In this document: positions 7,390 to 23,059 of the stretch, piece after piece
How positions within the stretch are numbered: the stretch's first letter is position 1
Layout: the number at the start of each line of letters is the position of its first letter
Assembly (NCBI RefSeq): GCF_000278275.1
Contig: NZ_JH725147.1
Coordinates: forward strand, 62,001 to 126,000
Source of the DNA: Bartonella tamiae Th239
GTDB taxonomy: Bacteria > Pseudomonadota > Alphaproteobacteria > Rhizobiales > Rhizobiaceae
Direction: 5' to 3'
Length of the DNA stretch: 64,000 nt
Notes under the pieces: generated by a model
What the model was told of the DNA's origin: nothing
Databases searched by the model: none
Seen by the model: the letters and a program-made list of their open reading frames with translations, nothing else
Translations under genes and position numbers: made by a program

Positions 7390-7860
7390 ATGTCTCATAA
7401 TACCCATCACCCCAAGCTATTTATCCGACGTCTCAAACATTCTCATGGTCTTGATCTGCCTCATTATGCAACAGCAGGATCAGCTGGTATGGATTTACGT
7501 GCTGCCATATTAGAAAATGAAGATCTTATCATTGTACCAGGAAAACGGCTTTTGGTGCCAACGGGTCTAATCTTTATCCTACCCAATGGTTTTGAAGCAC
7601 AAATCAGGCCTCGTTCGGGTCTTGCTTTCAATAATGGCGTCACTTGTTTAAATACGCCAGGTACGATTGATTGCGATTATCGCGGCGAAATCAAAGTTTT
7701 ATTGATCAATCTTGGCGATGAACCTTTTGTCATCAAGCGCGGTCAGCGTATTGCACAAGCCATTATTGCTCCAGCTCCACAGATTTTGATTGAAGAAACA
7801 ACACGACAAGATGAAACAGATAGAGGCACATCAGGGTTTGGCTCAACAGGCATTCACTAA
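7390..7860 (+). CDS. dut: deoxyuridine 5'-triphosphate nucleotidohydrolase (dUTPase)
   Basis: The 156-residue protein contains all five trimeric dUTPase motifs: [11 protein letters not shown] (I), PRSGLAF (II), [19 protein letters not shown] (III), RIAQAII (IV) and the C-terminal [10 protein letters not shown] arm (V). The enzyme splits dUTP to dUMP and pyrophosphate, which keeps uracil out of DNA and feeds dTMP synthesis. The ATG at 7390 follows AAGGATAGCATC, a usable ribosome site. It is a single gene facing the convergent formate dehydrogenase operon. Confidence 0.95.
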
Positions 7861-8207: not shown

Positions 8208-8894
8208 TTATTTTTTGAGATCCTTGATCTCACGATTTTTCAACATTGAATCATACCATTTACGATGATGTGCCCACGCAAAACCACCAGACACTTTTCC
8301 CTTAACCATTGCTCGTAAAGATCCACGAATCCAATAAACAGCATACATGTGCATGACCCAAATGGCGATAATACCTGCGGCAACCAAAGAATGAATGATT
8401 AATGCATAACGTTGCCATTCTATCGGAACGAAAGGCGCAAAATAGGCTTGCCAAACCATTAAGCCTGAAACAATGAGAATGATTAATCCAAAAGACATAG
8501 CCCAAAAAATACACTTTTGACCAAAATTATATTTACCAACAGGCGGTAATTTTTCTTCATTGCCTTCTAAAACATCTTTCATCTGCATTGCCCATTGCAA
8601 ATCAGATTTTTCCCAGATATTTAATCGCCAAAAGCGGAAAAATAACCCAAAAAAACTTAAAAGCATAACAATGCCAATATAAGGATGGATCATCCGAACA
8701 ACCTGCCCTCCGCCAAAAAGATTGGCAAGTGGGAAAAGAAACGGCCAATACATAATCAACCCTGTCAAAGCTAAAAGGATCATTGATCCAGCCGCTATCC
8801 AATGGTTTATACGTGCTCCACGCGTATAACGATCAACAACCACAGGACTACCACGGTGAATCCTATCACCTTTTTCATAAAGCTTATTTTTCAT
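8208..8894 (-). CDS. formate dehydrogenase gamma subunit, cytochrome b556
   Basis: The 228-residue membrane protein matches the FdnI/FdoI cytochrome b556 family. It has four hydrophobic segments and haem-ligand histidines in RINHWIAAGSMILLALTG, MIHPYIGIVML, LIIHSLVAAGIIAIWVMHMYAVYW. It anchors the dehydrogenase to the inner membrane and passes electrons from the FeS subunit to quinone. Translation is assigned to the ATG at 8894, inside the last codons of fdhB (11-nt overlap), because a longer frame would run deep into fdhB and add no family sequence. Last gene of the fdhA-fdhB-gamma operon, followed by a terminator. Confidence 0.9.
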   Translation of the reverse strand: MKNKLYEKGDRIHRGSPVVVDRYTRGARINHWIAAGSMILLALTGLIMYWPFLFPLANLFGGGQVVRMIHPYIGIVMLLSFFGLFFRFWRLNIWEKSDLQWAMQMKDVLEGNEEKLPPVGKYNFGQKCIFWAMSFGLIILIVSGLMVWQAYFAPFVPIEWQRYALIIHSLVAAGIIAIWVMHMYAVYWIRGSLRAMVKGKVSGGFAWAHHRKWYDSMLKNREIKDLKK

Positions 8895-9831
8895 GATCGC
8901 TGTCCTCCAAAGCTTTTTCCGCCTCGTTTTCATCATGTTGTTTGACGCGTGTCGGTCCCATAAACAAAGCGTGAGCTGCTGCTCCTGCAATAGCAGCGCC
9001 AATAGCACCAAGCCCAAGATATTTGGAAACACCTTTCCATGTTTTAACGATCGGCGAAATACGCGGCTCTTCAGGTAAGTTTGAATAAATATTGGGTTGA
9101 TCCGCATGATGAAGAACATACATCACGTGTGTGCCACCAACGCCTTCAGGATCATAAAGTCCAGCATTTTCATAACCGCGATTGTTAAGATCAGCAATAC
9201 GATCTTTTGCATGTTCTTTCAAATCTGCTTTTGCACCGAACATAATCGCCTCAGTGGGACAAGATTTTGCACATGCAGGGATTTGACCAACAGCAATACG
9301 ATCTGAACATAAAGTGCATTTATAAGCTTTATGATCCTTTTTCGAAATACGCGGAATATTGAAAGGACATCCTTTCACGCAATATCCACAACCAATACAT
9401 TTATCGTGATCAAAATCGACGATCCCATTTGAATATTGCACGATGGCTCCTGGCGAAGGGCATGCAGTAAGACAGCCAGGTTCTGCGCAATGCATGCAAC
9501 CATCCTTACGGATAAGCCATTCAAATGTGTCAGTTTCAGGATTGACCCATTCGCTAAAACGCATAATTGTGAATGCTTCAGGAGTTAAATCATGCGGATT
9601 ATCATAAACACCGACATTGGTTTCAATTTCAGGACTGAGATCATTCCATTCTGAACACGCAGATTGACACGCTTTACAGCCAATACATCTTGAAACATCA
9701 ATGAGTTTAGCGACAGGTTCGAGTTGCCGCTTAGGCTCTGGCACAGTTGATGCAGAAGAACGAATATAGTCATCTGGACCAAATTGTTGAACAATCACAT
9801 CCTGTGTTGGAGGATTAATGTTAATATTCAT
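8884..9831 (-). CDS. formate dehydrogenase beta subunit, 4x[4Fe-4S] protein
   Basis: The 315-residue protein has sixteen cysteines in four ferredoxin-like clusters: C49-C59 (CIGCKACQSAC), C112-C124 (CMHCAEPGCLTAC), C145-C155 (CIGCGYCVKGC) and C172-C191 (CTLC then CAKSC). A C-terminal hydrophobic helix (about residues 272-292, GLGAIGAAIAGAAAHALFMG) anchors it on the periplasmic face. This is the FdnH/FdoH architecture, wiring the selenoenzyme to the cytochrome. The start codon overlaps the fdhA stop by four bases (ATGA). It should be exported as a passenger with the Tat-targeted alpha subunit. Confidence 0.93.
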   Translation of the reverse strand: MNININPPTQDVIVQQFGPDDYIRSSASTVPEPKRQLEPVAKLIDVSRCIGCKACQSACSEWNDLSPEIETNVGVYDNPHDLTPEAFTIMRFSEWVNPETDTFEWLIRKDGCMHCAEPGCLTACPSPGAIVQYSNGIVDFDHDKCIGCGYCVKGCPFNIPRISKKDHKAYKCTLCSDRIAVGQIPACAKSCPTEAIMFGAKADLKEHAKDRIADLNNRGYENAGLYDPEGVGGTHVMYVLHHADQPNIYSNLPEEPRISPIVKTWKGVSKYLGLGAIGAAIAGAAAHALFMGPTRVKQHDENEAEKALEDSDHEK

Positions 9832-12800
9832 GCTTCAGACCTCCCATCGGCATCAATAGGTGCCCTTGATTTTTCCATATTCACCAAAAAGGCTTTAAAT
9901 TCTGGTGTTTGAGAATTGGCATCGCCAACAAAAGGTGTCAAAGAATTAGGACCAAAACCTTTTTTGGCAGCGCCGACAAACCCCCAATGCAAAGGTATAC
10001 CTATGACATGAACGGATTTTCCATCACATATGAGCGGGCGAATACGTTTTGTTACAAGCGCTTTGGCATAAACTTCACCACGTTTATTCCAAACTTTAAC
10101 CCAATCTCCCTTCACAACACCTTTTTCTGCTGCCAATTCTTCAGAGATTTCAACAAAAAACTGAGGTTGAAGAGATGCATTAATGCGATTATTTTTCGTC
10201 CAATAATGGAAATGCTCTGTCAGACGATAAGAGGTTGCAGCAAATGGAAACTCTTCACTGTTTCCCATCTGCTTTAAATCTTCGTCAAAAACACGAGCAA
10301 CAGGGTTCCCACGAATATTTGGTGCAACAGGGTTAACAATGGGCGATTCAAACGGTTCATAGTGAACAGGAAATGGTCCGTCACGCAAGCCACCAAGCGA
10401 AAACAACCGTGCTGAACCTTCTGCGTTCATGATAAATGGACCAACATCTCGTGGATTTGAAGCGGGTGGAATGTCAGGCACATCAAAGCCTGTCCATTTT
10501 GTCCCGTCCCACTCGATAATTTTACGACTTGGGTCCCATGACTTACCGTCAATATCTGAAGACGCGCGATTATAAAGAATACGACGATTGGCAGGCCATG
10601 CAAATGTCCATTTAGGATAAAGTCCACTTTCATCATAATCTGTATTATCACGAAGAGCCATTATATTGCCCTCTTCCGTAAAACTTCCTGAATAAACCCA
10701 ACACCCTGCCGCAGTAGTCCCATCATTCCGCAATTCAGCAAAACCTGACAATTGTTTGCCTTTTTCAAGAATTTTTTTGGTCGGATCGTTTGGATCATAC
10801 ACATCTTCAAGAACATAGCCATTCATTTCTTTGGCAAGTTCTTCAGATAAAGGATTATTTTCATCCGCATATGGCCAATAAAGATTGACAATCGGATCAG
10901 GGTAAACACCGCCTTCTTCCTGATACAATTTTTTCAATCGTAACCAAATTTGAGCCATAATCCAAGTATCATATTTGGCTTCTCCCGGTAGGTTCTGACC
11001 TGGCCAATGCCATTGCAACCAACGCCCAGAATTAACAACTGCACCTTCATCTTCTGCGAATGAACTAGAAGGCAGTTGAAAAACTTCCGTTTGAATGTCT
11101 GCTGGATCAACATCGTTAAAATCACCATGATTTTCCCAAAAGCGCGCAGTTTCTGTCTCAATTGGATCCATCACAACAAGATATTTTAGTTTGCCTAAAG
11201 CACGTTGAACTTTTTTACGATTTGGAAACGCCAAGACAGGATTGAAACCTTGACAGAAATAGCCTGTCATTTTCCCATGATCCATAAGATCAAAAGCTTT
11301 GAGGATGTCATAATTGGCAATATCAAGCTTAGGCAAATAATCATAGGCCCAATCATTTTCCTTGGTCGCTGCATCACCCCACAAAGATTTCATTAAAGAA
11401 ATAAAAAATTTATCGTAATTTTGCCAATAGCTTACCTGATTGGGTCGCGTAGGTGCATATTTGCGTGTTAGAAAATAGGTTTTTAAATCTGTCTCATCCT
11501 CAAGTGGAATATTCATATATCCGGGAAGCAAATTTGACATCAGTCCAATATCTGTCAAACCTTGAATATTTGAATGACCACGAAGCGCATTCATACCACC
11601 ACCACGTACACCAATATTGCCAAGAATAAGTTGCAACATAGCCATGGTGCGAATATTTTGTGATCCTTTAGAATGTTGCGTCCAACCCAATGCATACATT
11701 GAGGTCATTGTTTTGGTTGGTGTTGAACATTCTGCAATCATCTCGCAAATTTTAAGGAATTTTTCCTTGGGCGTACCACAAATACGTTCAACAAATTCTG
11801 GTGTATAAGCACTGACGTGTTTTTTAAGCATTTGCCACACACAACGCGGATGCGTCAATGTTTCATCAGTTTTGGCAAAACCATCTTCACCCACTTCATA
11901 GGCCCATGATGAACGATCATAATCGCGTTTTTCTTCATCATAACCACTAAATAGGCCTTCGTTGAAATCAAATTCTTCCTTAACAATTAATCCAGCATTG
12001 GTAAAATGCTTCACATAGTCATGCTGAACCTTATCATTACTCATACAATAATGAATAACCCCTGATAAAAAGGCAATATCAGTTCCTTGGCGGATCGGCG
12101 CATAATAATCAGCAACGGATGCAGAACGCGTAAAACGCGGATCAACAACAATGAGCTTGGCACCGCGATTTTCTTTCGCATGCGTTACCCATTTAAAACC
12201 ACAAGGATGGGCTTCAGCAGCATTGCCGCCCATAATGATAACAAGATCAGTTGAACGGATATCCGTCCAAGCATTTGTCATTGCACCACGACCAAAAGTT
12301 GGGCCCAGACTGGACACCGTTGGGCCGTGTCAAACGCGCGCCTGATTATCAAATGCAAGCATTCCGCTTGAGCGCACAACCTTATATGTTACAAAAGCGG
12401 TTTCGTTTGTGGTGGCAGATGCGGCAAGGAACCCCGTCGTCAACCAACGATTAACGGTTTGTCCTTTTTGATTTTTTTCAACAAAATTCGCATCGCGATC
12501 ATCTTTCATGTAACGGGCGATTTTATCAAGCGCTTCATCCCATGTTGTGTCTTCAAAATGATCAGAACCCGGGCGGCGCACTTTTGGCTTGGTAATACGG
12601 CTCTTAGAATGAATCGTATCCAATAATGCTGCACCTTTCGGACACAAAGTTCCACGATTGGTCGGATGATCAACATCACCTTCTACGTGAACAACTTTGG
12701 CATTGCCTTCTTGCAGTGAACCTTTTGAATAAAGGATAATGCCACAAGCAACGGAACAATATGTACAGGTTTGGCGCGTTTGTGTCGTGGACGCAAGCTT

Positions 12801-12926
12801 AAATGGTCTAATTGCAGAGGCTGCTGCAGCTTCTGCTTGACTAAAACCAAGCGATCCGAGAGCGGTCGCACCAACACCCGCACCAGCACCCTTCAAAAAG
12901 GTACGACGCGAGATTTCAATATTCAT
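9828..12926 (-). CDS. formate dehydrogenase alpha subunit, selenocysteine-containing (in-frame UGA)
   Basis: Read through the UGA at 12330-12332, this is one 1032-residue protein of the FdnG/FdoG type. Order of features: a Tat signal SRRTFLKG (residues 6-13); a [4Fe-4S] site C54, C57, C61, C95; the Mo/W-bis-MGD domains; and Sec at residue 199 in the family context NQARV-U-HGPTV. The frame is the same on both sides of the UGA, and homology continues without a gap. It oxidises formate to CO2 in the periplasm and passes electrons to the beta subunit. The ATG follows GAGGAA. A SECIS-like hairpin sits just after the UGA, and the selA, selB, selC, selD and fdhE genes are nearby. An automatic caller that does not know Sec would split it into two genes. 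Confidence 0.95.
12301..12332 (-). promoter_or_regulatory. bacterial SECIS element within fdhA
   Basis: Immediately after the UGA the mRNA can form a hairpin: GG, a bulged U at position 17 counted from the U of UGA, then GUCC, the loop AGUCU, then GGGC and CC. The distance, the bulged U17 and the AGUCU loop agree with the SelB-binding hairpin known from E. coli fdnG/fdhF. This should recruit SelB with Sec-tRNA and decide for Sec insertion over termination. Seen by eye, not folded by program. Confidence 0.8.
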
Positions 12927-13341
12927 CGAAAATTCCTCAATATATACATGTCTTATTTGCCTTAGAATAGAAGCTTTCTAATCTTATGTCAAAGACATTG
13001 GCGCTAACAAACGCAAAAACCTGCTCAATTTGTTTTAAAAAATGTTATCTTGCACATCAATTTAAATTCCCCATGAGGATGGAAAACCCAAAAAAAAGTG
13101 AAATAAAGCAAACACGCATTATAGTTACTGATTAATACATGAATAAATATTATACTTATTCATATTATGTCAAAAAACAGACACGTCAACGTGAAAATTT
13201 TGCCAACTAAAGACTCTTTTGAAAAGATGCACACCAAAAATCAATATTGACATTCATCGTGAACGGATTGATCGTACATTGATCATCGTCATAAATAGCG
13301 TATGATTTCTTTATATTCATTTTTATTTAAAAAAAGGACAT
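12927..13341. other. divergent promoter region between fdhA and selD
   Basis: This 415-base region should hold the promoters of the fdh operon (leftward) and of selD (rightward). I see a perfect 10-base palindrome TCAATATTGA at 13241-13250 and a repeated ATTGATC at about 13268 and 13280, near selD. None fits an FNR/FixK box (TTGAT-N4-ATCAA). No gene or RNA is recognised. Confidence 0.4.
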
Positions 13342-14388
13342 ATGATGACACCCATCCGTTTGACAAGTCTTGCCCACGGTGGGGGTTGCGGTTGTAAGCT
13401 TGCGCCCTCCATTTTGCAAAAAATGCTCAAAAACCAACCGAGCTTCGGACCTTTTGAGCATTTGCTCGTGGGGACAGATACCAATGACGATGCCGCAGTT
13501 TATGCGCTCGATGATGAAACATGCATTATTGCAACAACTGATTTTTTTATGCCTATGGTGGATAATGCCAAAACGTTTGGTCAAATTGCTGCAACCAACG
13601 CTATTTCTGATATTTATGCAATGGGTGGAAAACCAATTATGGCGCTGGCCATTTTGGGTATGCCGATTGATAAATTAGACCCTTTAATTGTCGCTGATAT
13701 TTTAGCAGGTGGACGTGAAAAAGCTGCTGAAGCAGGCATTGCTGTGGCTGGTGGTCACTCTATTGATTGCCCAGAACCTGTTTACGGACTCGCTGTCATA
13801 GGTATATGCAAAAAAAGCCAACTACGCCGTAATAACCAAGCGAAGATCGGTGACAAATTGGTATTATTAAAAGCTTTAGGTGTTGGAATATATTCATCTG
13901 CATTTAAAAAGGATGCTTTATCTGAAAATGCCTATCAAGAAATGATAAAATCAATGACACAGCTCAATAAAATTGGAACTGAGCTTGGCAACCAATCTGA
14001 TGTTCACGCATTAACAGATGTTACAGGTTTTGGAATTTTAGGTCATAGTTTAGAAATGGCAGAGGGTTCAGGCGTTGAAATTCAATTAAATTTTTCAAAA
14101 TTACCTTTTTTATCTCAAGCACAAATATTGGCACAAAAAGGTTTTGTAACGGGTGCCTCACATCGCAATTGGGACAGTTATGGTCATAAAATAATTTTGC
14201 CAGAAAAATTGGAAGACTTTCAGCGTCATCTCTTAACAGATCCTCAAACATCTGGTGGCTTATTAATATCTGTGAGCGCAAAAAAAGCGGATGAGTTGGT
14301 TCAAAAAGCTCAAAACGAAGGTTATAACCATGCAAAAATTATTGGTGAGGTTCATGAAGGATCCTACAGAGTTCGTATAAACGAATGA
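13342..14388 (+). CDS. selD: selenide, water dikinase
   Basis: The 348-residue protein makes selenophosphate from selenide and ATP, the selenium donor for SelA. The N-terminal GGGCGCK has catalytic Cys16 and Lys19, so it is a cysteine form and does not itself need Sec. Further family segments are GTDTNDDAAVYAL, ATTDFFMPMVD, NAISDIYAMGG, AGGHSID and DVTGFGILGH. ATG at 13342, with a second ATG right after, follows AAAAAGGAC. It is divergent from fdhA and separate from selAB. No selenouridine synthase gene (mnmH) is in the window, so the local use of its product is selenocysteine. Confidence 0.96.
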   Translation: MMTPIRLTSLAHGGGCGCKLAPSILQKMLKNQPSFGPFEHLLVGTDTNDDAAVYALDDETCIIATTDFFMPMVDNAKTFGQIAATNAISDIYAMGGKPIMALAILGMPIDKLDPLIVADILAGGREKAAEAGIAVAGGHSIDCPEPVYGLAVIGICKKSQLRRNNQAKIGDKLVLLKALGVGIYSSAFKKDALSENAYQEMIKSMTQLNKIGTELGNQSDVHALTDVTGFGILGHSLEMAEGSGVEIQLNFSKLPFLSQAQILAQKGFVTGASHRNWDSYGHKIILPEKLEDFQRHLLTDPQTSGGLLISVSAKKADELVQKAQNEGYNHAKIIGEVHEGSYRVRINE

Positions 14389-14828
14389 TATAATACTATG
14401 TTTGCTGTTGATACATGCCTGACCCCTTTTTTTAAGACTGTTCAATCTAGTCATGATTTTTTTGAAATGATGGCTAATATTAAAAAAAATACTGTCAATG
14501 ACATCTTTAATGAGAAAATTGTCGGTATTTATTTAATAAAATTGTGAAAAAAAACTTTTTTTACATAATTTTTCTTTTTTTTTTAAAAAAATGCTTGGCA
14601 TTTTATACGAACATCGTTAGGTTCAAATTTATCAGCAGATATGTTGCGGAGCATCGCGAGCAATCGTTTTCCAACTGCTGTTTGAGATTTTCAGAAAAAT
14701 TGATTAGAGCTTGATTGACTTTCAGGACATATAATCAAATTGGATATCGGTCATAAGCCGCTTTATCCTATGTTGAAAATACAAGATTTATACACCAACA
14801 AATGATAAGGCATCCAAAAGAGATTATT
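14389..14828. other. intergenic region between selD and the DUF4167 gene
   Basis: A 440-base stretch with long A and T runs around 14550-14590. A 49-codon frame at 14398-14547 (+) has no ribosome site and no recognisable homology. A 34-codon open stretch on the minus strand (14583 to about 14690) reads like protein (AVGKRLLAMLRNIS) but has no start. They may be decayed gene fragments; I do not call them. Confidence 0.35.
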
Positions 14829-15515
14829 ATGAGGCCACAGCAAAATAGGCGCATGCGCGGACGCAATAACAATAATGGAAACAATAACAATCGGCGCGGT
14901 CCAAATCCACTCTCTCGAAATTATGAAAGCAATGGACCTGATGTTAAAATACGCGGAAACGCACAGCATATTGCTGATAAATATGCCGCTTTAGCACGAG
15001 ATGCTCAAGCCTCAGGTGATAGAGTTATTGCAGAAAACTATCTGCAACATGCTGAACATTACACACGTATAATTTTAGCTGCACAAGCACAAATGCCACA
15101 AACACCTCCACGTGAAGAAACATTGGAGGATGAAAATGATGACAATACACGGATTGATCACGCAGGTGAAAATGATCATAATGACTCAAATGCTGAGAGT
15201 TCACAAAGTTTAGACAATAGTCCTCAGCCAAAAATTGAAGAGGTTCGTGCTGAAGTTGCTTTATCTGAGAATGATGATATCGCTGAAAAAAGAGAACCTG
15301 TAAAACGTCAGCGTCGTGCACCTCGTCGCAAAACTTCACAATTGTCGGAAAATGACCATCAAGAAGATGAAAAAATCGAAACTGTTTCCCAAGCAGAACA
15401 CAATGCGTCTGAAGACATCTCACAAAGTGGCGATACTCTTGTAGAAGAAGAGAAAAAACCTCGTCGTCGGCGTGTTGTCAAAACAAAGGTACAAAAAGCC
15501 GAAGAAGAAGTTTAA
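14829..15515 (+). CDS. DUF4167 domain protein, RNA-binding-like basic/acidic protein
   Basis: The 228-residue protein has an N-terminal DUF4167 domain, with a basic Asn/Arg-rich tract (RGRNNNNGNNNNRRG) and then DVKIRGNAQHIADKYAALARDAQASGD, GLU-rich linkers, and a basic C-terminal tail (RRAPRRK, KKPRRRRVVK). The family is found throughout Hyphomicrobiales, usually near prfA/prmC; its function is unknown, though the composition suggests nucleic acid binding. The ATG at 14829 fits the family start MRPQQ and follows AAGAGA; an upstream in-frame ATG adds nine residues without homology. Here the usual prfA/prmC neighbours are absent. Confidence 0.82.
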   Translation: MRPQQNRRMRGRNNNNGNNNNRRGPNPLSRNYESNGPDVKIRGNAQHIADKYAALARDAQASGDRVIAENYLQHAEHYTRIILAAQAQMPQTPPREETLEDENDDNTRIDHAGENDHNDSNAESSQSLDNSPQPKIEEVRAEVALSENDDIAEKREPVKRQRRAPRRKTSQLSENDHQEDEKIETVSQAEHNASEDISQSGDTLVEEEKKPRRRRVVKTKVQKAEEEV

Positions 15516-16251
15516 ATAAGTATAATCTTTTTATAAGAATGAAATTTTCAAAAACGATTTTTAATCTTTGCAAACCTCTTATTGGCTTTGAGCAGGACAA
15601 ACTCTCTTGACATCTTGCGCATTTAAAAAAAATAATTGTGGTCACATAAGTTTTATATATTAAATCTTGACCAAATCTATCAACTTATATAAATTTTTAG
15701 CAATATTTATAGAGTGGTTGGCTATGTCATTTTTTTTAAGCTTTTATCTCTTTGTATTTATTATTCTGGTGCAAAAGAGAATAAGAGTTCAAATTTTATG
15801 AAGCAATGGACAAAAGACTTTGAAAGCCTTTTGGGCTCATAACAAACCCGTTTGCATGATTGTTGATGCACATGAACGTCTTGAAGACAAGAATGCAAAT
15901 ATTATGACCTTATGGATGAAATCCCATAAAGATACGCTTCAAAAGAAAATTTTATCAATAATTTATATTGCAAATGACGAAAAAGAATTTGAAAAATTTC
16001 ATATAAAATACAAAAAGTGAAAAAACATTTCCATACCTAATGACAGTGGTTCAATCTTTAAAAAATACGAAAGAAATCGCCAATTCAAATATTATCGTTC
16101 ATGACTAAACCATAAGACTTAATTTTAAGATTGTTTCCTTTAGTCTTTATTAAATGAAGTGTTTATCACATCATTATTATCATCAAACGTATCTCAAGAT
16201 TATAATGGCGCTGAGCGTATATATAAGCCAGGCGGCATGACTCTATAATAA
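15516..16251. other. gene-poor stretch with a possible decayed small gene
   Basis: This stretch holds no recognised gene. Between about 15799 and 16020 (+) there are two overlapping frames, MKQWTKDFESLLGS and, one base shifted, KAFWAHNKPVCMIVDAHERLEDKNAN to FHIKYKK. Together they look like a short coding sequence broken by a frameshift. I cannot assign a family. A short hydrophobic frame (MSFFLSFYLFVFIILVQK) lies just before at 15724. Likely gene remains next to the IS insertion. Confidence 0.35.
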
Positions 16252-16259
16252 AAATTTAT
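16252..16259. repeat. 8-bp target-site duplication, left copy
   Basis: AAATTTAT directly abuts the left terminal repeat of the IS element, and the same eight bases follow its right end at 16968-16975. This indicates a recent, undecayed insertion. Confidence 0.9.
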
Positions 16260-16967
16260 GGGGCTGTCCTAGATAATTGCTATGAACTATCTCTTACTAA
16301 TTGTTTTAAAAGGGAAAATTGAACTTTTGGGTCACTGTTGTTAAAACGCCATTCACATTCTTTCAAAAATAGATAAAAATGTTCTCGAGGAATACCATTA
16401 AATTTACGTAAATGGCGCTTAGCTTGGTTCCAAAAATTCTCAATTCCATTGATATGATTGTGCTTATCTGCAAATAATTTGCTATGATTAATACGATAAT
16501 GAGTAAACTCACTGACGTCAAGAACATCATAACTGCGATAAGTATCGGTATAAACTATGCTATCAGGTTTGACATGCTCCTTAATAATAGGAACTAAGGT
16601 GACGGCTCGAGTATTGGGAACTAAAACCGTATAAAACTTGCCATCACGCTTTAAAAGCCCAAATACTGGTACTTTTCCCAAAGCTCCTCGTCCACGCTTC
16701 CCCTTGCGCCTTCCTCCAAAATAAGATTCGTCAGCTTCAACTTCACCTTCAAACATTTCCAAATGATCACTATGAAGATAAATCAGACAACGAAGGCGAT
16801 GAAAATAATAAGCAGCCGTTGTTTTGTTAACACCAACTAAGGCAGCTGCCGTTCTCGCTGTTGAACCAGCTATAAATAATTCTATAAGCTTGCATTGCTT
16901 ATACCAACTTAAACGACTTTTTCTCATGGGCTAACCTTAGATAATTTACGTTATCTAGGACAGCCCC
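16260..16967 (-). mobile_element. complete IS1595-family insertion sequence (708 bp)
   Basis: Both ends carry the identical 17-bp inverted repeat GGGGCTGTCCTAGATAA (16260-16276 and, reversed, 16951-16967). The element is flanked by the 8-bp direct repeat AAATTTAT. It contains one intact transposase gene on the minus strand and nothing else, the usual layout of small IS1595-type elements, which make 8-bp duplications. It inserted 43 bp from the 3' end of selC, so it may influence or insulate transcription leaving the selAB-selC operon. Confidence 0.93.
16280..16927 (-). CDS. IS1595-family transposase (ISXO2-like)
   Basis: The 215-residue protein has an N-terminal helix-turn-helix-like part (STARTAAALVGVNKTTAAYYFHRL) and an ISXO2/DDE-N domain. 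Its catalytic positions appear to be VEADESYFGGRRKG (Asp), YTDTYRSY (Asp) and HINGIENFWNQAKRHLRKFNG (the N/E-rich third motif). The frame is intact from ATG to stop, and the element has perfect ends, so it is probably active or was until recently. Confidence 0.93.
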   Translation of the reverse strand: MRKSRLSWYKQCKLIELFIAGSTARTAAALVGVNKTTAAYYFHRLRCLIYLHSDHLEMFEGEVEADESYFGGRRKGKRGRGALGKVPVFGLLKRDGKFYTVLVPNTRAVTLVPIIKEHVKPDSIVYTDTYRSYDVLDVSEFTHYRINHSKLFADKHNHINGIENFWNQAKRHLRKFNGIPREHFYLFLKECEWRFNNSDPKVQFSLLKQLVRDSS

Positions 16968-16975
16968 AAATTTAT
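16968..16975. repeat. 8-bp target-site duplication, right copy
   Basis: AAATTTAT immediately right of the IS1595-type element repeats the left flank exactly. Confidence 0.9.
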
Positions 16976-17010
16976 AGTTCTCGTATAAACACCCGTTAAG
17001 CGGATCAATA

Positions 17011-17106
17011 TGGCGGAAGAGCATGGGAGTCGAACCCACCAAAGACCGTCTCACGGCCCCTTACGGCTTTGAAGGCCGCACTCATCACCGGATGAAAAGC
17101 CCTTCC
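17011..17106 (-). tRNA. selC: selenocysteine tRNA (anticodon UCA)
   Basis: The 96-base minus-strand sequence has every mark of tRNA-Sec. It has an 8-bp acceptor stem (GGAAGGGC/GCTCTTCC) with discriminator G and encoded CCA, and a long D stem (TTCATC/GATGAG) with a four-base loop CGGT. The anticodon stem CGGC/GCCG holds the loop CTTCAAA (anticodon TCA), the variable arm is six bp (GGCCGT/ACGGTC), and the T-arm is GTGGG-TTCGACT-CCCAT. It reads UGA for Sec in fdhA. It lies 37 nt after selB on the same strand, probably in the same transcript. Confidence 0.95.
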
Positions 17107-17143
17107 AACTTTGTTATGGTATTTTTTATAACAATCTGCAAGT

Positions 17144-19072
17144 TTAATGATCGTTAAAAAGATTAAAACGATGCGGATTAAGACGACGTCGATCACCTTT
17201 ACGAATGGTAACACCGTGTCGATCAAAAAATTCCAAAAGTAAAATTGCGATCTTACGACCATTATGAAGCGCATCGCGTAAATCGGCAGCAGTAAAAAAA
17301 CCATTAGATTGAGTAAGCTGAATAGTATGCATTTGACGAACAATCTCATGCAGAACCTCACGTGGAAAAAAGTAATCTTGCGCCACTTCATAAACACGCC
17401 CCATACGTGAAGCAGATTTTAAAATTTGACGCATATCATTTTCATCAATTGACAATAAAGTCGCAAAATCACGCGTACGGCTTGGTCGAAAGCGATCTTC
17501 ACCCACTAAATTAGTATGAACATATTGAAAAATTTTCTCGTCTTCATCGCTCAGTTTTGCCTCATGACTGGATAGACCAATCCATGCACCTTGTATTTTT
17601 AAGACTTGGGCCTCAATTTCCGTTTGGAGAAAAGCACGAAAAAAGGGCATTTTTATTTCTGGAGCAATATCACGGCGTAGTTTTTCAAGTCCAATACCAA
17701 AAAGATCAGGGGTGTTGTCATGAAAATCTTTTAAATACTCTAAAATTTTATGCTTTAATATATTTTGATGTGTTTGCGTCATGACAAAACGCTCACGTCC
17801 AAAATGAAAACTGCAAAACGCTTCTGAAGAAAGAACAGTCTTAGCCTCATCTTCAGTTAAGTTACGCGCACGGCAAAATGGAATCCATTCAATGCCAAAT
17901 GGGAACACTTTAAGAAGATCATTTAACGCGGTTCTGTCATCTTTTTGTTCCATTGCTTTTAAAACAGCGAGCCGCTCAGGCGTTTTACGTTTTCTCGCTG
18001 GTGCAAAAGGATCAAGAATCTCACCTCCACCGATAGTGCGGCTTGCGCTCGTATCACGTATGATAAAACGATCACCAACAACAGCAATAACAGGTTTATC
18101 CGTTACAATCTGACAATAGGCTTTTTCACCGGCTGTAACACTGTCTTTATCCAAAAAAACAAGACGTGCGCTGATGTCTTGTGCATTATGATGAAAATGA
18201 ACAGGAAACCATTGCGTTAAAGGTTTTTTTTCTGTTTCGACGATTCTCACAGACCCATCAAAACGCATTGTTGGATGATCAAGAAAGGGATCAAGAACAA
18301 CCATACCACGCTTTATTGATGTTTTATCAACCCGTTCACCAACAAGATTTAAAGCGGCTCGATCACCTGACTGCGCTTGTTGTGCGTTTTCATCTTGCAC
18401 ATGAATAGAACGCAATCGTATGGGCATATGGATAGGCCCGACAATCAACTTATCATTCTCAAATGCTTGTCCTGAAATGACCCGACCTGTTACAATGGTG
18501 CCAGCGCCCGCAAGCGTAAAAATACGATCAATAACATGTCGAAATCGACCCGTGACCTTAAGATTTGGCTTCTCTATTGCCGCCTTTTCAATCACGGCAC
18601 GCAGCTTAGCAATTCCCATTCCTGTTTTTGAAGAAACCGCTATCATTGGCGCATCTTGTAAAAATGTATTATGAAGAAACACTTTCACATCTTGCCTTAA
18701 TGCATTTAAGCGTTTTTCATCAACCAAATCACTACGCGTTAAGACAACAATACCATGGTGAATATTAAGAAGTTTTAAAATCTCAAAATGTTCACGCGTT
18801 TGTGGCATAATCCCATCATCTGCAGCAATAACAAGCATAGCAAAATCAATACTGCCAGCACCGCTTACCATTGTATGAATAAGCTTTTCATGACCTGGAA
18901 CATCAACAAAACCGATGCGTTGACCACTTTCTAAAGTTTGATAAGCAAAACCTAATTCAATAGTAATGCCCCGTTGCTTTTCTTCAAGCAAACGATCGGT
19001 ATCAACACCGGTTAAAGCACGAATGAGGGTGGTTTTACCATGGTCAATATGACCAGCTGTTCCTATTATCAT
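17144..19072 (-). CDS. selB: selenocysteine-specific translation elongation factor
   Basis: The 642-residue protein starts [22 protein letters not shown] (P-loop), with switch region RGITIELGF and [12 protein letters not shown]; the nucleotide specificity motif is TRSD instead of the common NKxD/TKxD. EF-Tu-like beta domains follow, and the C-terminal half holds the winged-helix domains that bind the SECIS hairpin, ending [23 protein letters not shown]. It carries Sec-tRNA to the ribosome. Start codon lies 9 nt downstream of selA, so the two are co-transcribed and probably coupled; selC follows. Confidence 0.96.
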
Positions 19073-19081
19073 TTTTTTTAT

Positions 19082-20455
19082 TCAATCAAGATTAGCGATA
19101 AATTGGTCATGATCTCTCAAGCATCTTAGATCAAGTAATAAAGCATCATCATGAAAACGGCCAATAACTGGAATGGGTAAATTACGTAACCGCTTTGCCA
19201 AAATATTTAAAGAACTTCCAGAGTGAGCCGCTCGAATAGATAAACCAAAGCTTTCTAACGTTTGTGTAGGCAAAGCACCTGAACCAATCTGACTTAAACA
19301 TGGCACAACATCAATCTGATAGTCAGGGGTAAAATAAGCACTTACGGCGCGGCATAGCTTATGTGCTTGAGAGGCAATCTCATTTTTTGAACGCGATAAA
19401 AAACGCAATGTTGGAATTGTTTTATGACGCGTATCATGATTGCGATAAAGACGCAAAACCGCTTCTAAAGCCGCCAGCCTTATCTTATCAACGCGTAAAC
19501 TTCTTTTTAAAGGATTACGATTAATAGCCGCAATCATATCTGCATTACCAATAATAAACCCAATTTGAGGTCCACCTAAAAGCTTGTCGCCAGAAAATGT
19601 CACAATATCAGCACCCGATTTGATTGTTTCTTGCACAGTTGGTTCTCTTTTTAAACCATAGTGATGAAGATCAACCAATGTACCCGATCCAAGATCTTCA
19701 ATCATCGGAACACAATGCTTTTTCGCAAGAGATGATAATTGAGCTGTTGATACACTTTGTGTAAATCCTTCAATGCTATAATTTGATGTATGCACCTTTA
19801 ATAAAAGAGCCGTTTCTTCATCAATTGCCTGCTCATAATCATGACAATGCGTTCGGTTTGTCGTACCTACTTCTGTTAAATGACATCCTGCACTTTCCAT
19901 AATATCAGGCATGCGAAAAGACCCGCCAATTTCAATCAATTCACCACGTGATATAATGGCGTTGCTTTTTTTTTGGCTTAATGTGTTCAAGACTAAAAAA
20001 AGTGCTGCCGCATTATTGTTAACCAAAGTGGCGTCTTCGGCACCTGTTAATTCACAAATCAACGATCTTAAATGATCGTCACGTTCTCCTCTTTTGCCTG
20101 TTTCTAAATCAAATTCTAACGATACAGTCTCACGCATAGCGCATATTGCCGCCTCAATTGCTGCCTCAGGCAATTGCGCACGCCCAAGATTTGTATGTAA
20201 AATTGTTCCTGTTAAATTAAAAACAGCTCGTAATGAAGATAAAGAGTCTGCCTCCAAACGCTCAAAAGCCATTGCTGCTAATTGTTCTATAGTATGGGCA
20301 TTTCGCCCATTTTTTAAAAAGAGCCTTTCATCAGCAAGTGTTGCACGAATAGCATCCAACGTTGCGCATCGTCCAAATTTTTTTTGAGCATCCCGTGCAA
20401 CCGCTTCTTGCATAATTGCATCAACAGAGGGAAGAGATGAAAAATCAATGACCAT
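19082..20455 (-). CDS. selA: L-seryl-tRNA(Sec) selenium transferase
   Basis: The 457-residue PLP enzyme has the N-terminal SelA domain (RAVFNLTGTILHTNLGRAQLPEAA), the PLP lysine at K291 in VTFSGDKLLGGPQIG, and the family segment ISRGELIEIGGSFRMPDIM. It converts Ser-tRNA(Sec) to Sec-tRNA(Sec) with selenophosphate from SelD. Its ATG follows the fdhE stop codon without a gap (TAA ATG), pointing to translational coupling. Length is normal for the family. Confidence 0.96.
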   Translation of the reverse strand: MVIDFSSLPSVDAIMQEAVARDAQKKFGRCATLDAIRATLADERLFLKNGRNAHTIEQLAAMAFERLEADSLSSLRAVFNLTGTILHTNLGRAQLPEAAIEAAICAMRETVSLEFDLETGKRGERDDHLRSLICELTGAEDATLVNNNAAALFLVLNTLSQKKSNAIISRGELIEIGGSFRMPDIMESAGCHLTEVGTTNRTHCHDYEQAIDEETALLLKVHTSNYSIEGFTQSVSTAQLSSLAKKHCVPMIEDLGSGTLVDLHHYGLKREPTVQETIKSGADIVTFSGDKLLGGPQIGFIIGNADMIAAINRNPLKRSLRVDKIRLAALEAVLRLYRNHDTRHKTIPTLRFLSRSKNEIASQAHKLCRAVSAYFTPDYQIDVVPCLSQIGSGALPTQTLESFGLSIRAAHSGSSLNILAKRLRNLPIPVIGRFHDDALLLDLRCLRDHDQFIANLD

Positions 20456-21370
20456 TTAATAACCGATCAAAAATGGATTAAATGCGCCACGTTTAAATGA
20501 ATTATTGTTCTTCATCAGCATATCAAGAGCAATAGAACCAATATCATCAGCAAAAACATCAAATGATGAATCTTTTTGATGATTCATTTGTTTACAATAA
20601 TCGCCACATTCATCACATGTTTCTGCCAAAATACTACCGGGGCCTCCTTCAATTTCTTTATAACCAATACCCTTTGTTTGCACACAAAACGTACATTTGA
20701 TACGCACATAATGCCAAAGCGTTCCACAATATAGACAGGAACAAAATCGAGCGCCTTCAGCTGACGGCCATCCCACAATCATGCTGGCTGAATGTGTGCC
20801 ACCACATGCAGGACAAAGATTGTGTTCAAAAGCCTGTAACTTTTTTGTATCCAGCTTTTGCGTCGCCAGAGTTAAAATAATTTGTAAGGCACCTGTAACA
20901 AAAATATGTTGTGCTATTGTGTCATCTGGTATCTTTTGCTCAATTATATGAGAAGCCCAAAGCGACCAATTATTTTCATTTGTAAGCGTATTTTCTAAAG
21001 CCATTCGACTGCCCGTTTGTAACGGCGCTTTATTAAGTCTCTCTAAAAATGAACGCATAACTTCTTTAAAAAGTGGAAGATGAATCAAAGCTGACCGTTC
21101 AATCGGTGGCATTTTGAAAGAATGCGCACGTTCTGTATCAATGGTTGGAAAATTCGCATTCCGAAAATTATCTGCAACATCTTGTTGCGCTTTTGTAAAA
21201 AATTTTAAAAATTCAACATAATCTTTTATAGGACTTGTTTTAGCAAGTTTCTCAAAACGCAGATGTCTTTTTTCAAAAATCTTATGAATATCAGGCAATT
21301 GGGCAAATGGCGGATTGCGCATATGGCCAACATTGGTCATGTCGCCTTCAAATTTTTTATTACGCGGCAT
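20456..21370 (-). CDS. fdhE: formate dehydrogenase accessory protein FdhE
   Basis: The 304-residue protein matches FdhE, the rubredoxin-like maturation factor that interacts with the alpha subunits of respiratory formate dehydrogenases before Tat export. Its cysteine pairs are CPAC, CLYC, CTFC and CDEC/CGDYC, in the spacing of the family, with the conserved GWPSAEGARFCSC region. It forms the head of fdhE-selA-selB-selC, which mirrors the functional link between FDH maturation and Sec synthesis. A GGAG lies about 11 bases before the ATG. There is a 94-nt gap to exbD upstream and no clear terminator in it. Confidence 0.92.
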   Translation of the reverse strand: MPRNKKFEGDMTNVGHMRNPPFAQLPDIHKIFEKRHLRFEKLAKTSPIKDYVEFLKFFTKAQQDVADNFRNANFPTIDTERAHSFKMPPIERSALIHLPLFKEVMRSFLERLNKAPLQTGSRMALENTLTNENNWSLWASHIIEQKIPDDTIAQHIFVTGALQIILTLATQKLDTKKLQAFEHNLCPACGGTHSASMIVGWPSAEGARFCSCLYCGTLWHYVRIKCTFCVQTKGIGYKEIEGGPGSILAETCDECGDYCKQMNHQKDSSFDVFADDIGSIALDMLMKNNNSFKRGAFNPFLIGY

Positions 21371-21464: not shown

Positions 21465-21896
21465 TTATTGCGCAGCAGCAGGTTGTTCTAAGCCAACCAA
21501 ACCTATCTTCAAATAACCTGAACTTTTCAAATTATTCAATAATCTCATCAAACCACCATATTCAACGCCTTGATCGCCACGAATAAAAATTTTCGTCTCA
21601 CGATTATTTTCAGTTAAGCGATCCAAAGTTGTTTTTAAACTATCCATAGAAACATTTTCTTCACCAACATAAAGTGATTGGTCTTTTTGCAATGTTACAT
21701 AAACAGGCTTATCAGGTCGCGGCTGAGAAGATGCAGCAGCAGTCGGTAATTGTATTGGTATATCACTTGTCGCAAGTGGTGCTGCCACCATAAATATAAT
21801 AAGCAAAACAAGGATAACATCAATAAAAGGTGTTACATTAATGTCATGATTTACATCAAGTTCATCATTATCAAGATCAGCAAGTTTGGCAGCCAT
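21465..21896 (-). CDS. exbD: ExbD-type biopolymer transport protein
   Basis: The 143-residue protein has a short cytoplasmic N-terminus, one transmembrane helix preceded by DINVTPFIDVILVLLIIFMV (with the conserved Asp of the proton path) and a periplasmic domain. It is the ExbD/TolR fold. With ExbB it uses the proton gradient to energise TonB-dependent uptake, often of haem or iron. It begins 5 nt after exbB. No tonB gene or TonB receptor is seen here; a separate TolQR pair is present at 36-38 kb. Confidence 0.9.
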   Translation of the reverse strand: MAAKLADLDNDELDVNHDINVTPFIDVILVLLIIFMVAAPLATSDIPIQLPTAAASSQPRPDKPVYVTLQKDQSLYVGEENVSMDSLKTTLDRLTENNRETKIFIRGDQGVEYGGLMRLLNNLKSSGYLKIGLVGLEQPAAAQ

Positions 21897-21901
21897 TCAT
21901 T

Positions 21902-23059
21902 CTACTCCGCAGCGATAGACAGATTAGGATGTGAAGAATTTTTTTGACGCACTTTACGATAATCTAAATCACGACTTACCAACCGTTCAATACCCGCAGA
22001 AACATCAACCAATTGTTGACGATACCCCGTTATGGAACGGGCAAAAATATTATAGATGATAACCGCGGGAATTGCCGCAACAAGACCAATAGCTGTTGCA
22101 AGTAACGCTTCAGCAATACCAGGAGCTACAACTGCAAGATTGGTTGTGTGGGCTTGAGAAATCCCAATAAATGAATTCATAATACCCCAAACAGTCCCAA
22201 ACAAACCAACAAAAGGACTAATAGCACCAATTGTTGCAAGAGGACCTGTACCAAAAGACATACGCCGACCAGCGCCAGCAACAAGACGAGAAAGTACAGA
22301 GCCTAAACGTTCTTTCAAACCATCAACACCTGCCTCATCTAAAACTGCTAGCGACGCCTGAACTTCCTTTTCAGCGGCAAGAACAAGATCCGCACCGATA
22401 CTGCTTTGCTCTTTCATTGCTGTCGAAAGCTCGGACAAACTGCCAGAATAATTGACGGCATGAAGGGCTATACGCGCTTTTCTTTTCGCAGATGAAATTT
22501 CGACAGTTTTGACCAGCCATATTGTCCAAGTTGCAACAGATGCAAGGGCCAATCCTATCATCACAGACTTCACCACCCAATCGGCTGCTAAAAACATACC
22601 AATTGGTGAAAGATCATGAGAAACAGATGCGTTTATTTGTGGCGATGATGATGCTGATTCTCCCCCATTTGCTAATTGTAGTGCAGGAAGAGACTGTGCA
22701 GTGTTTGGTGCAGTCTGCTCTATATTTTGGGATGTTTGAATATTTGGAACGTCTCCACCAATAATAATTTGTTGTGATGACACTGAAGGTTGAAGACTAT
22801 TGGGTTGCGAAGATTCTACGTTATGTAAAGGTTGCGATATATCAGATGCAACCTCAACAGAATTTGAAAGAGGTGAAGCAGAAAATTGAGGAATATTTTG
22901 TTGGTTTTGTCCAGAATTTTGTATTGTTTCCATCAAAGGCGCACTCTGTTGCCCTATTTGTGAAGTGCTTTCTTGTGCTTGCGCCCCTTGATGATATGAT
23001 AACAGAGTGAAAAATGTTACGATCGCTCCAGTCAACATTCTTTTACAAAGAAGTACCAT
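21902..23059 (-). CDS. exbB: ExbB-type proton channel protein with long periplasmic N-terminus
   Basis: The 385-residue protein has an N-terminal signal-like helix (TGAIVTFFTLLSYHQGAQAQ). About 110 residues of Gln/Ser/Asn-rich low-complexity sequence follow, and then the three-helix MotA/TolQ/ExbB domain, with LATIGAISPFVGLFGTVWGIMNSF and IAEALLATAIGLVAAIPAVIIYN. Long N-terminal extensions occur in ExbB of several alphaproteobacteria; their role is not known. It precedes exbD by 5 nt. Confidence 0.9.
   Translation of the reverse strand: MVLLCKRMLTGAIVTFFTLLSYHQGAQAQESTSQIGQQSAPLMETIQNSGQNQQNIPQFSASPLSNSVEVASDISQPLHNVESSQPNSLQPSVSSQQIIIGGDVPNIQTSQNIEQTAPNTAQSLPALQLANGGESASSSPQINASVSHDLSPIGMFLAADWVVKSVMIGLALASVATWTIWLVKTVEISSAKRKARIALHAVNYSGSLSELSTAMKEQSSIGADLVLAAEKEVQASLAVLDEAGVDGLKERLGSVLSRLVAGAGRRMSFGTGPLATIGAISPFVGLFGTVWGIMNSFIGISQAHTTNLAVVAPGIAEALLATAIGLVAAIPAVIIYNIFARSITGYRQQLVDVSAGIERLVSRDLDYRKVRQKNSSHPNLSIAAE

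Follow-up and report, generated by a model that had tools for sequence, protein, structure and literature searches.

Gene content of the island

A block of genes for a respiratory formate dehydrogenase and for the decoding of UGA as selenocysteine (Sec) was analyzed in Bartonella tamiae Th239, on a 64,000-nucleotide stretch of DNA that is referred to throughout as the window (C1:62001-126000 of the 2.25-Mb genome; GC 0.388). The island comprises fdhA, fdhH, fdhI, selD, selC, selB, selA, and fdhE (Table 1). Its proteins were identified with NCBIfam models, all seven scoring above cut-off, and chance matches were dismissed as unrealistic at such scores. Together with ARAGORN and Rfam, these models agree with a preliminary description of the locus that had placed the same eight genes, including an fdhA with an in-frame UGA, at these positions. 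The coordinates likewise bear out the tight packing it had reported (gaps of 0 nt for fdhE/selA, 9 nt for selA/selB, and 37 nt for selB/selC) and the divergent orientation of selD and fdhA. The Sec-decoding set was found to be complete in the window, with selA, selB, selC, and selD all present and their frames open, in keeping with the claim that this AT-rich genome couples a full Sec-decoding system to a respiratory formate dehydrogenase. The fdhD gene, described as lying outside the view, was located elsewhere in the genome (C1:848519), as was moaA (C1:759853). For fdhI, the start at 8894 is our choice, the listed open reading frame (ORF) reaching 9119 and beginning further upstream, within fdhH. 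The FdhA N-terminus displays a twin-arginine motif, MNIEISRRTFLKG.

Two features inside the block had not been part of the preliminary description: a gene of the DUF4167 family and an insertion sequence of the IS1595 family, both of which leave the island genes intact. The IS1595-family element is a bystander about 43 bp beyond the 3′ end of selC (about 35 bp when counted from its duplication).

The gene content is a direct observation, and the biochemistry proposed for it follows established knowledge of the families. SelD, SelA, tRNA-Sec, and SelB would insert Sec at UGA-199 of FdhA, guided by the Sec insertion sequence (SECIS) element located there; FdhE, together with the FdhD encoded elsewhere, would mature the molybdenum enzyme, which would be exported by the twin-arginine translocation (Tat) system; and electrons from formate would pass to FdhH and FdhI and from there to quinone. 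Judged from its genes, the block is probably a complete working module, with expression and activity predicted on the same basis.

Table 1. Features of the formate dehydrogenase/Sec island and its flanks, in window coordinates.
Feature	Position	Strand	Remarks
dut	7390..7860	+	Flank past fdhI; kept in Sec-positive Bartonella as far as the stretches reach
fdhI	8208..8894	-	Cytochrome b gamma subunit; TIGR01583, 168.5 bits, above cut-off
fdhH	8884..9831	-	Fe-S beta subunit; TIGR01582, 472.6 bits
fdhA	9828..12926	-	Catalytic selenoprotein subunit, 1032 residues; TIGR01553, 1431 bits
SECIS_3 element	12277..12335	-	At the fdhA UGA; Rfam RF01989, 82.3 bits, E 5.6e-18
fdhA Sec codon 199	12330..12332	-	In-frame UGA
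selD	13342..14388	+	Selenide water dikinase, divergent from fdhA; TIGR00476, 419 bits
DUF4167 gene	14802..15515	+	Embedded within the island
IS1595-family element	16260..16967	-	Inverted ends and 8-bp target duplication AAATTTAT
selC	17011..17106	-	tRNA-Sec, anticodon tca; ARAGORN; Rfam RF01852, 73.2 bits
selB	17144..19072	-	Sec-specific elongation factor; TIGR00475, 430 bits
selA	19082..20455	-	Sec synthase; TIGR00474, 582 bits
fdhE	20456..21370	-	Formate dehydrogenase maturation protein, four CX2C motifs; TIGR01562, 214 bits
exbD and exbB-like genes	21465..23059	-	Flank past fdhE; kept in Sec-positive Bartonella as far as the stretches reach

Distribution and origin of the island

Of 71 Bartonella genomes, 14 (here termed Sec-positive) had a SelB match above cut-off, and FdhD was detected in exactly the same 14. 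MoaA exceeded its cut-off in 13 genomes, all of them within this set, the exception being G058 (86% complete). At the thresholds used, none of these three proteins was detected in the remaining 57 (Sec-negative) genomes. A further search for FdhA, which covered 60 genomes, matched G000, G003, and the outgroup G195 and none of the 57 Sec-negative Bartonella genomes; the sensitivity of the FdhA profile was such that it gave matches in 11 of 14 control genomes. Because the absences track one lineage, they do not amount to 57 independent events. The 13 other Sec-positive Bartonella were found to share the gene order and flanks of the window as far as their contigs or stretches reach (contigs L055 and L056 stop within the island). 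UGA occupied the Sec site in all 11 first fdhA copies for which an alignment spanned it, that of the window included (G046, G058, and G063 provided no such alignment), and the SECIS element was present in all six relatives searched. The DUF4167 family was detected in all 71 Bartonella genomes. Among the Bartonella papers listed, with subscription papers partly covered, titles and abstracts were silent on a Sec, FdhE, or formate dehydrogenase trait.

The preliminary description had considered that the island might turn out to be ordinary for the clade, and this holds for part of the genus and fails for the 57 of 71 Bartonella genomes that lack it. Beyond Bartonella, SelB was detected in 47 of 394 sampled Rhizobiaceae genomes, distributed over 25 of 109 genera, and in 33 of 40 Rhizobiaceae loci fdhA-fdhH-fdhI-fdhE-selA-selB formed a single run, usually followed by selC. 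Sinorhizobium meliloti pSymA, according to a statement in PMC8124441, carries fdoGHI plus a selABCD cluster. The window resembles pSymA, as far as that statement goes, and the Rhizobiaceae cassettes in having (i) the same genes, (ii) an FdhA with a UGA, and (iii) a tRNA-Sec after selB; a selD that is divergent from and adjoins fdhA is shared with part of the Rhizobiaceae loci. Unlike these cassettes, however, the Bartonella islands have fdhE-selA-selB-selC separated from fdhA-fdhH-fdhI by the DUF4167 gene and selD, and the single-run order was not encountered in the window or the other Sec-positive Bartonella loci, which are permuted. Further differences are that the window lies on an AT-rich, chromosome-sized contig and that its selC follows selB after the 37-nt gap, whereas selC nested in selB is described in a passage of PMC8124441 as common in Rhizobiales.

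Trees of FdhA, SelA, SelB, SelD, and FdhE, the phylogenetic check that the preliminary description had suggested, nested the window's island with the other Bartonella inside the Rhizobiaceae, beside genera G341, G418, G332, and others. In the SelA, SelB, and FdhE trees the next neighbor of Bartonella was G195, which was not included in the FdhA and SelD trees. Composition, the second check suggested, gave a mean GC content at third codon positions of 0.280 for the seven island genes, compared with 0.271 (range 0.21 to 0.33) across 17 further window genes; the island is thus like its neighbors and bears no mark of foreign origin. Where the preliminary description had left a choice between an old trait retained and a block acquired, the former is supported, and a recent transfer or a gammaproteobacterial origin was rejected on composition, synteny, and trees in which named gammaproteobacteria are thinly sampled. 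The trait is old for Bartonella, and the island is an ordinary, native selenoprotein formate dehydrogenase cassette of the respiratory Fdh-N/O type, as found in other Rhizobiaceae.

Two additional observations concern the AT-rich Rhizobiaceae genus near Bartonella to which G195, G096, and L137 belong (GC 0.34 in L137). In G195, fdhE-selA-selB lies >200 kb away from the UGA-containing fdhA. In G096, FdhE was found and SelB was not, at the threshold used. In the family as a whole, three genomes outside Bartonella (G096, G239, and G298) gave a match to FdhE and, at the thresholds used, none to SelB.

Orphan fdhE genes and probable loss of the island

FdhE was found by TIGR01562 in 42 of the 71 Bartonella genomes, that is, in the 14 Sec-positive genomes and in 28 of the 57 Sec-negative ones. 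The reading frames of these latter, orphan fdhE genes were open in 27 of the 28 genomes, and the remaining one, G016, was matched in part and contained an internal TGA. Two orphans were scanned against Pfam, and FdhE_N and FdhE_C passed in both and FdhE_central in one; one tested orphan matched PDB 2FIY at E 5.4e-15. In all 19 orphan loci that were read, fdhE was situated near the DUF4167 gene and always divergent from it, at a distance of 0.6 to 1.0 kb in 18 loci and 4.6 kb in G012. The set also included 99 loci from outside Bartonella (69 of them ≥9 kb), and DUF4167 was matched in none of these.

The 19 orphans formed one clade that was sister to the FdhE of Sec-positive Bartonella (FastTree support of 0.922 for the joint clade). 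An IQ-TREE analysis of 44 FdhE sequences, including 7 of 13 from Sec-positive Bartonella and all 19 orphans, gave ultrafast bootstrap (UFBoot) values of 100 for monophyly of the orphans and 99 for their grouping with the Sec-positive Bartonella FdhE. Since the orphan clade is sister to the Sec-positive FdhE and shares the link to DUF4167, the common ancestor would have had the cassette beside the DUF4167 gene, and the eubartonellae would have lost the rest. To relate this to the species history, ribosomal-protein trees were built with 60 of the 71 Bartonella genomes (12 of 14 Sec-positive, all 28 orphan-bearing, and 20 of 29 with neither) from 27 ORFs and then from 26, after one overlapping out-of-frame ORF was dropped; the ribosomal IQ-TREE analysis used 23 of 65 taxa. 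Orphan fdhE was present in every main eubartonella clade. With the 26-ORF matrix, the monophyly of the eubartonellae, the count of five fdhE losses, and the UFBoot values were unchanged, and the weak placement of G000 flipped.

These findings suggest that the last common ancestor of Bartonella carried the cassette beside the DUF4167 gene and that the island has been retained both in the lineage of the window and in the gut-associated clade. On the stem to the eubartonellae, the blood-borne lineages, formate dehydrogenase, Sec decoding, FdhD, and MoaA would have been lost and fdhE left behind, to survive in roughly half of the Sec-negative genomes, apparently under purifying selection. We consider this account of a native ancestral island, lost on the eubartonella stem with fdhE kept, to be highly probable as a whole. 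On this account, an entire trait, comprising formate respiration and Sec decoding along with FdhD and MoaA, would have disappeared on a single branch, and it is the loss of the island in most Bartonella, together with the surviving fdhE, that makes the locus of interest for follow-up.

The alternative, that Sec-positive Bartonella gained the island after their split from the eubartonellae or received it from gammaproteobacteria, is in our judgment very unlikely. The patchy occurrence of SelB among the Rhizobiaceae genomes and genera would fit a later gain, and transfer of such modules is inferred in passages of PMC1794560 and PMC8124441. However, a later gain is contradicted by the orphan FdhE, which is sister to the Sec-positive Bartonella FdhE and shares its link to DUF4167, and the native composition of the island also argues against it. 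Furthermore, the alphaproteobacterial group of the SelA, SelB, FdhA, and FdhE trees excluded both an Aeromonadales metagenome-assembled genome (MAG; L120) and the named betaproteobacteria, in a set where the sampling of named gammaproteobacteria is thin and consists of L120.

Several observations nevertheless weigh against an ancestral island lost once. (i) None of the 28 orphan FdhE sequences reached the NCBIfam TIGR01562 cut-off; one scored 131.5 bits versus 187.65. (ii) Orphan fdhE lies 5′ of the DUF4167 gene and the Sec-positive fdhE 3′ of it, so one rearrangement must be added. (iii) The tree implies five or more losses of fdhE, and G016 keeps only a piece with a stop; the gene is thus dispensable in many lineages. 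(iv) G000 grouped with the gut clade in the 27-ORF matrix (FastTree support of 0.479) and with the eubartonellae in the 26-ORF matrix (FastTree support of 0.206; UFBoot 82 on 23 taxa); the single loss on the eubartonella stem that we infer suffices under either placement. (v) G106 and its relatives stood beside Paracoccus and Neomegalonema in the FdhA, SelA, and SelB trees, whereas G106 joined G299 in the ribosomal tree. This conflict indicates that transfer has taken place in the family, and an older transfer of the island within the Rhizobiaceae may, from these trees, also have occurred.

Traces of the island were sought around DUF4167 in 20 Sec-negative loci. At E-values up to 1, the only match besides fdhE and DUF4167 was a 32-residue one to SelA (E 0.18) in one locus, and no fdhE remnant was detected at E 0.01 in the 7 loci that lack the gene. 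Near DUF4167 in five Sec-negative loci (L200, L202, L206, L208, and L213) there is an ORF, for which L206 gave a match to an HWE histidine kinase; beside it are response-regulator- and sigma-factor-like genes, named by eye only. In L233 (G046), the fdhE match is split into two pieces in different frames, which reflects a frameshift or a sequencing error.

Selection and possible role of orphan FdhE

A passage of PMC10609526 presents FdhE as a rubredoxin that binds iron, carries four CX2C motifs, and is systematically tied to periplasmic formate dehydrogenases, the role of its iron being said there to be undetermined; Escherichia coli Fdh-N and Fdh-O require FdhE according to a statement in PMC3160892. 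Orphan FdhE was found to be like this rubredoxin-like iron-binding chaperone (PDB 2FIY) in keeping the four CX2C motifs, whose eight cysteines were invariant in all 19 orphans read. The orphan-bearing genomes differ in that they gave no matches to FdhA, FdhD, or MoaA, and the association with a periplasmic formate dehydrogenase is missing. The ratio of nonsynonymous to synonymous substitution rates (dN/dS) ranged from 0.16 to 0.42 among the orphans (median 0.287; 141 of 171 pairs, limited to dS values from 0.05 to 1.5) and had a median of 0.058 among the Sec-positive genes (24 of 66 pairs, G046 excluded). The G012 sequence, with a stop near its end (position 298 of 302), was retained in the alignment. 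The dN/dS values indicate that orphan fdhE is evolving under purifying selection, and the protein on balance probably serves a purpose unrelated to formate dehydrogenase.

We find the chances evenly balanced that FdhE was re-employed once formate dehydrogenase, MoaA, and Sec decoding had gone from the eubartonella ancestor, in which case it would be a CX2C metal-binding protein that works apart from any formate dehydrogenase and acts, for example, in iron handling or on a different Tat substrate. That orphan FdhE is instead a functionless, slowly decaying leftover is possible but rather doubtful. Decay would account for a dN/dS about 5-fold that of the Sec-positive genes, for the long stem of the orphan clade (0.81), for the repeated losses and the stop in G016, and for the reduced conservation of the protein: of 45 columns conserved outside Bartonella, 24 were kept at 90% in the orphans compared with 37 in the Sec-positive Bartonella. 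Counter to this, 27 of 28 frames are open, the eight metal-site cysteines do not vary, dN/dS is at most 0.42 in every one of the usable pairs, and the gene persists in each main eubartonella clade. That orphan FdhE serves a formate dehydrogenase or other molybdoenzyme overlooked by the searches, as its known part in maturing periplasmic formate dehydrogenases (PMC10609526, in the passage cited) might suggest, is extremely unlikely, given that FdhA, FdhD, and MoaA (above cut-off) were each found in 0 of 57 Sec-negative genomes with an FdhA profile that gives matches in 11 of 14 controls.

Orphan fdhE recalls the orphan SelD genes described in part of PMC5029168, in which a single gene of a selenium trait likewise outlives its system; unlike orphan SelD, the leftover here is a formate dehydrogenase chaperone, and the loss of the system can be mapped onto the tree of the genus. 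The preserved gene constitutes a natural experiment, in which a maturation protein of periplasmic formate dehydrogenases is apparently kept under selection in genomes that yielded no such enzyme, and it allows the role of iron in FdhE to be studied without the usual client. The island itself is ordinary; the unexpected part is an FdhE under selection without any formate dehydrogenase.

Other observations were made at the island loci. An alignment of 10 selD-fdhA intergenic regions, inspected by eye, revealed nothing in common except a likely ribosome-binding site. Between the DUF4167 gene and the IS1595-family element, an interrupted open frame at 15800-16130 of the window is perhaps a decayed gene. 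In a Bartonella MAG, a second fdhA directly follows the first (L057:14708-21439); copy 1 has the UGA and a SECIS element, while copy 2 has TGC (Cys) at that site, no stops, and no SECIS element at the gathering threshold. A tract of 1286 bp is identical between them, and elsewhere (100-codon windows not wholly inside the tract) the copies are 83 to 96% alike, a pattern that fits either gene conversion between Sec and Cys copies or a metagenome assembly artifact.

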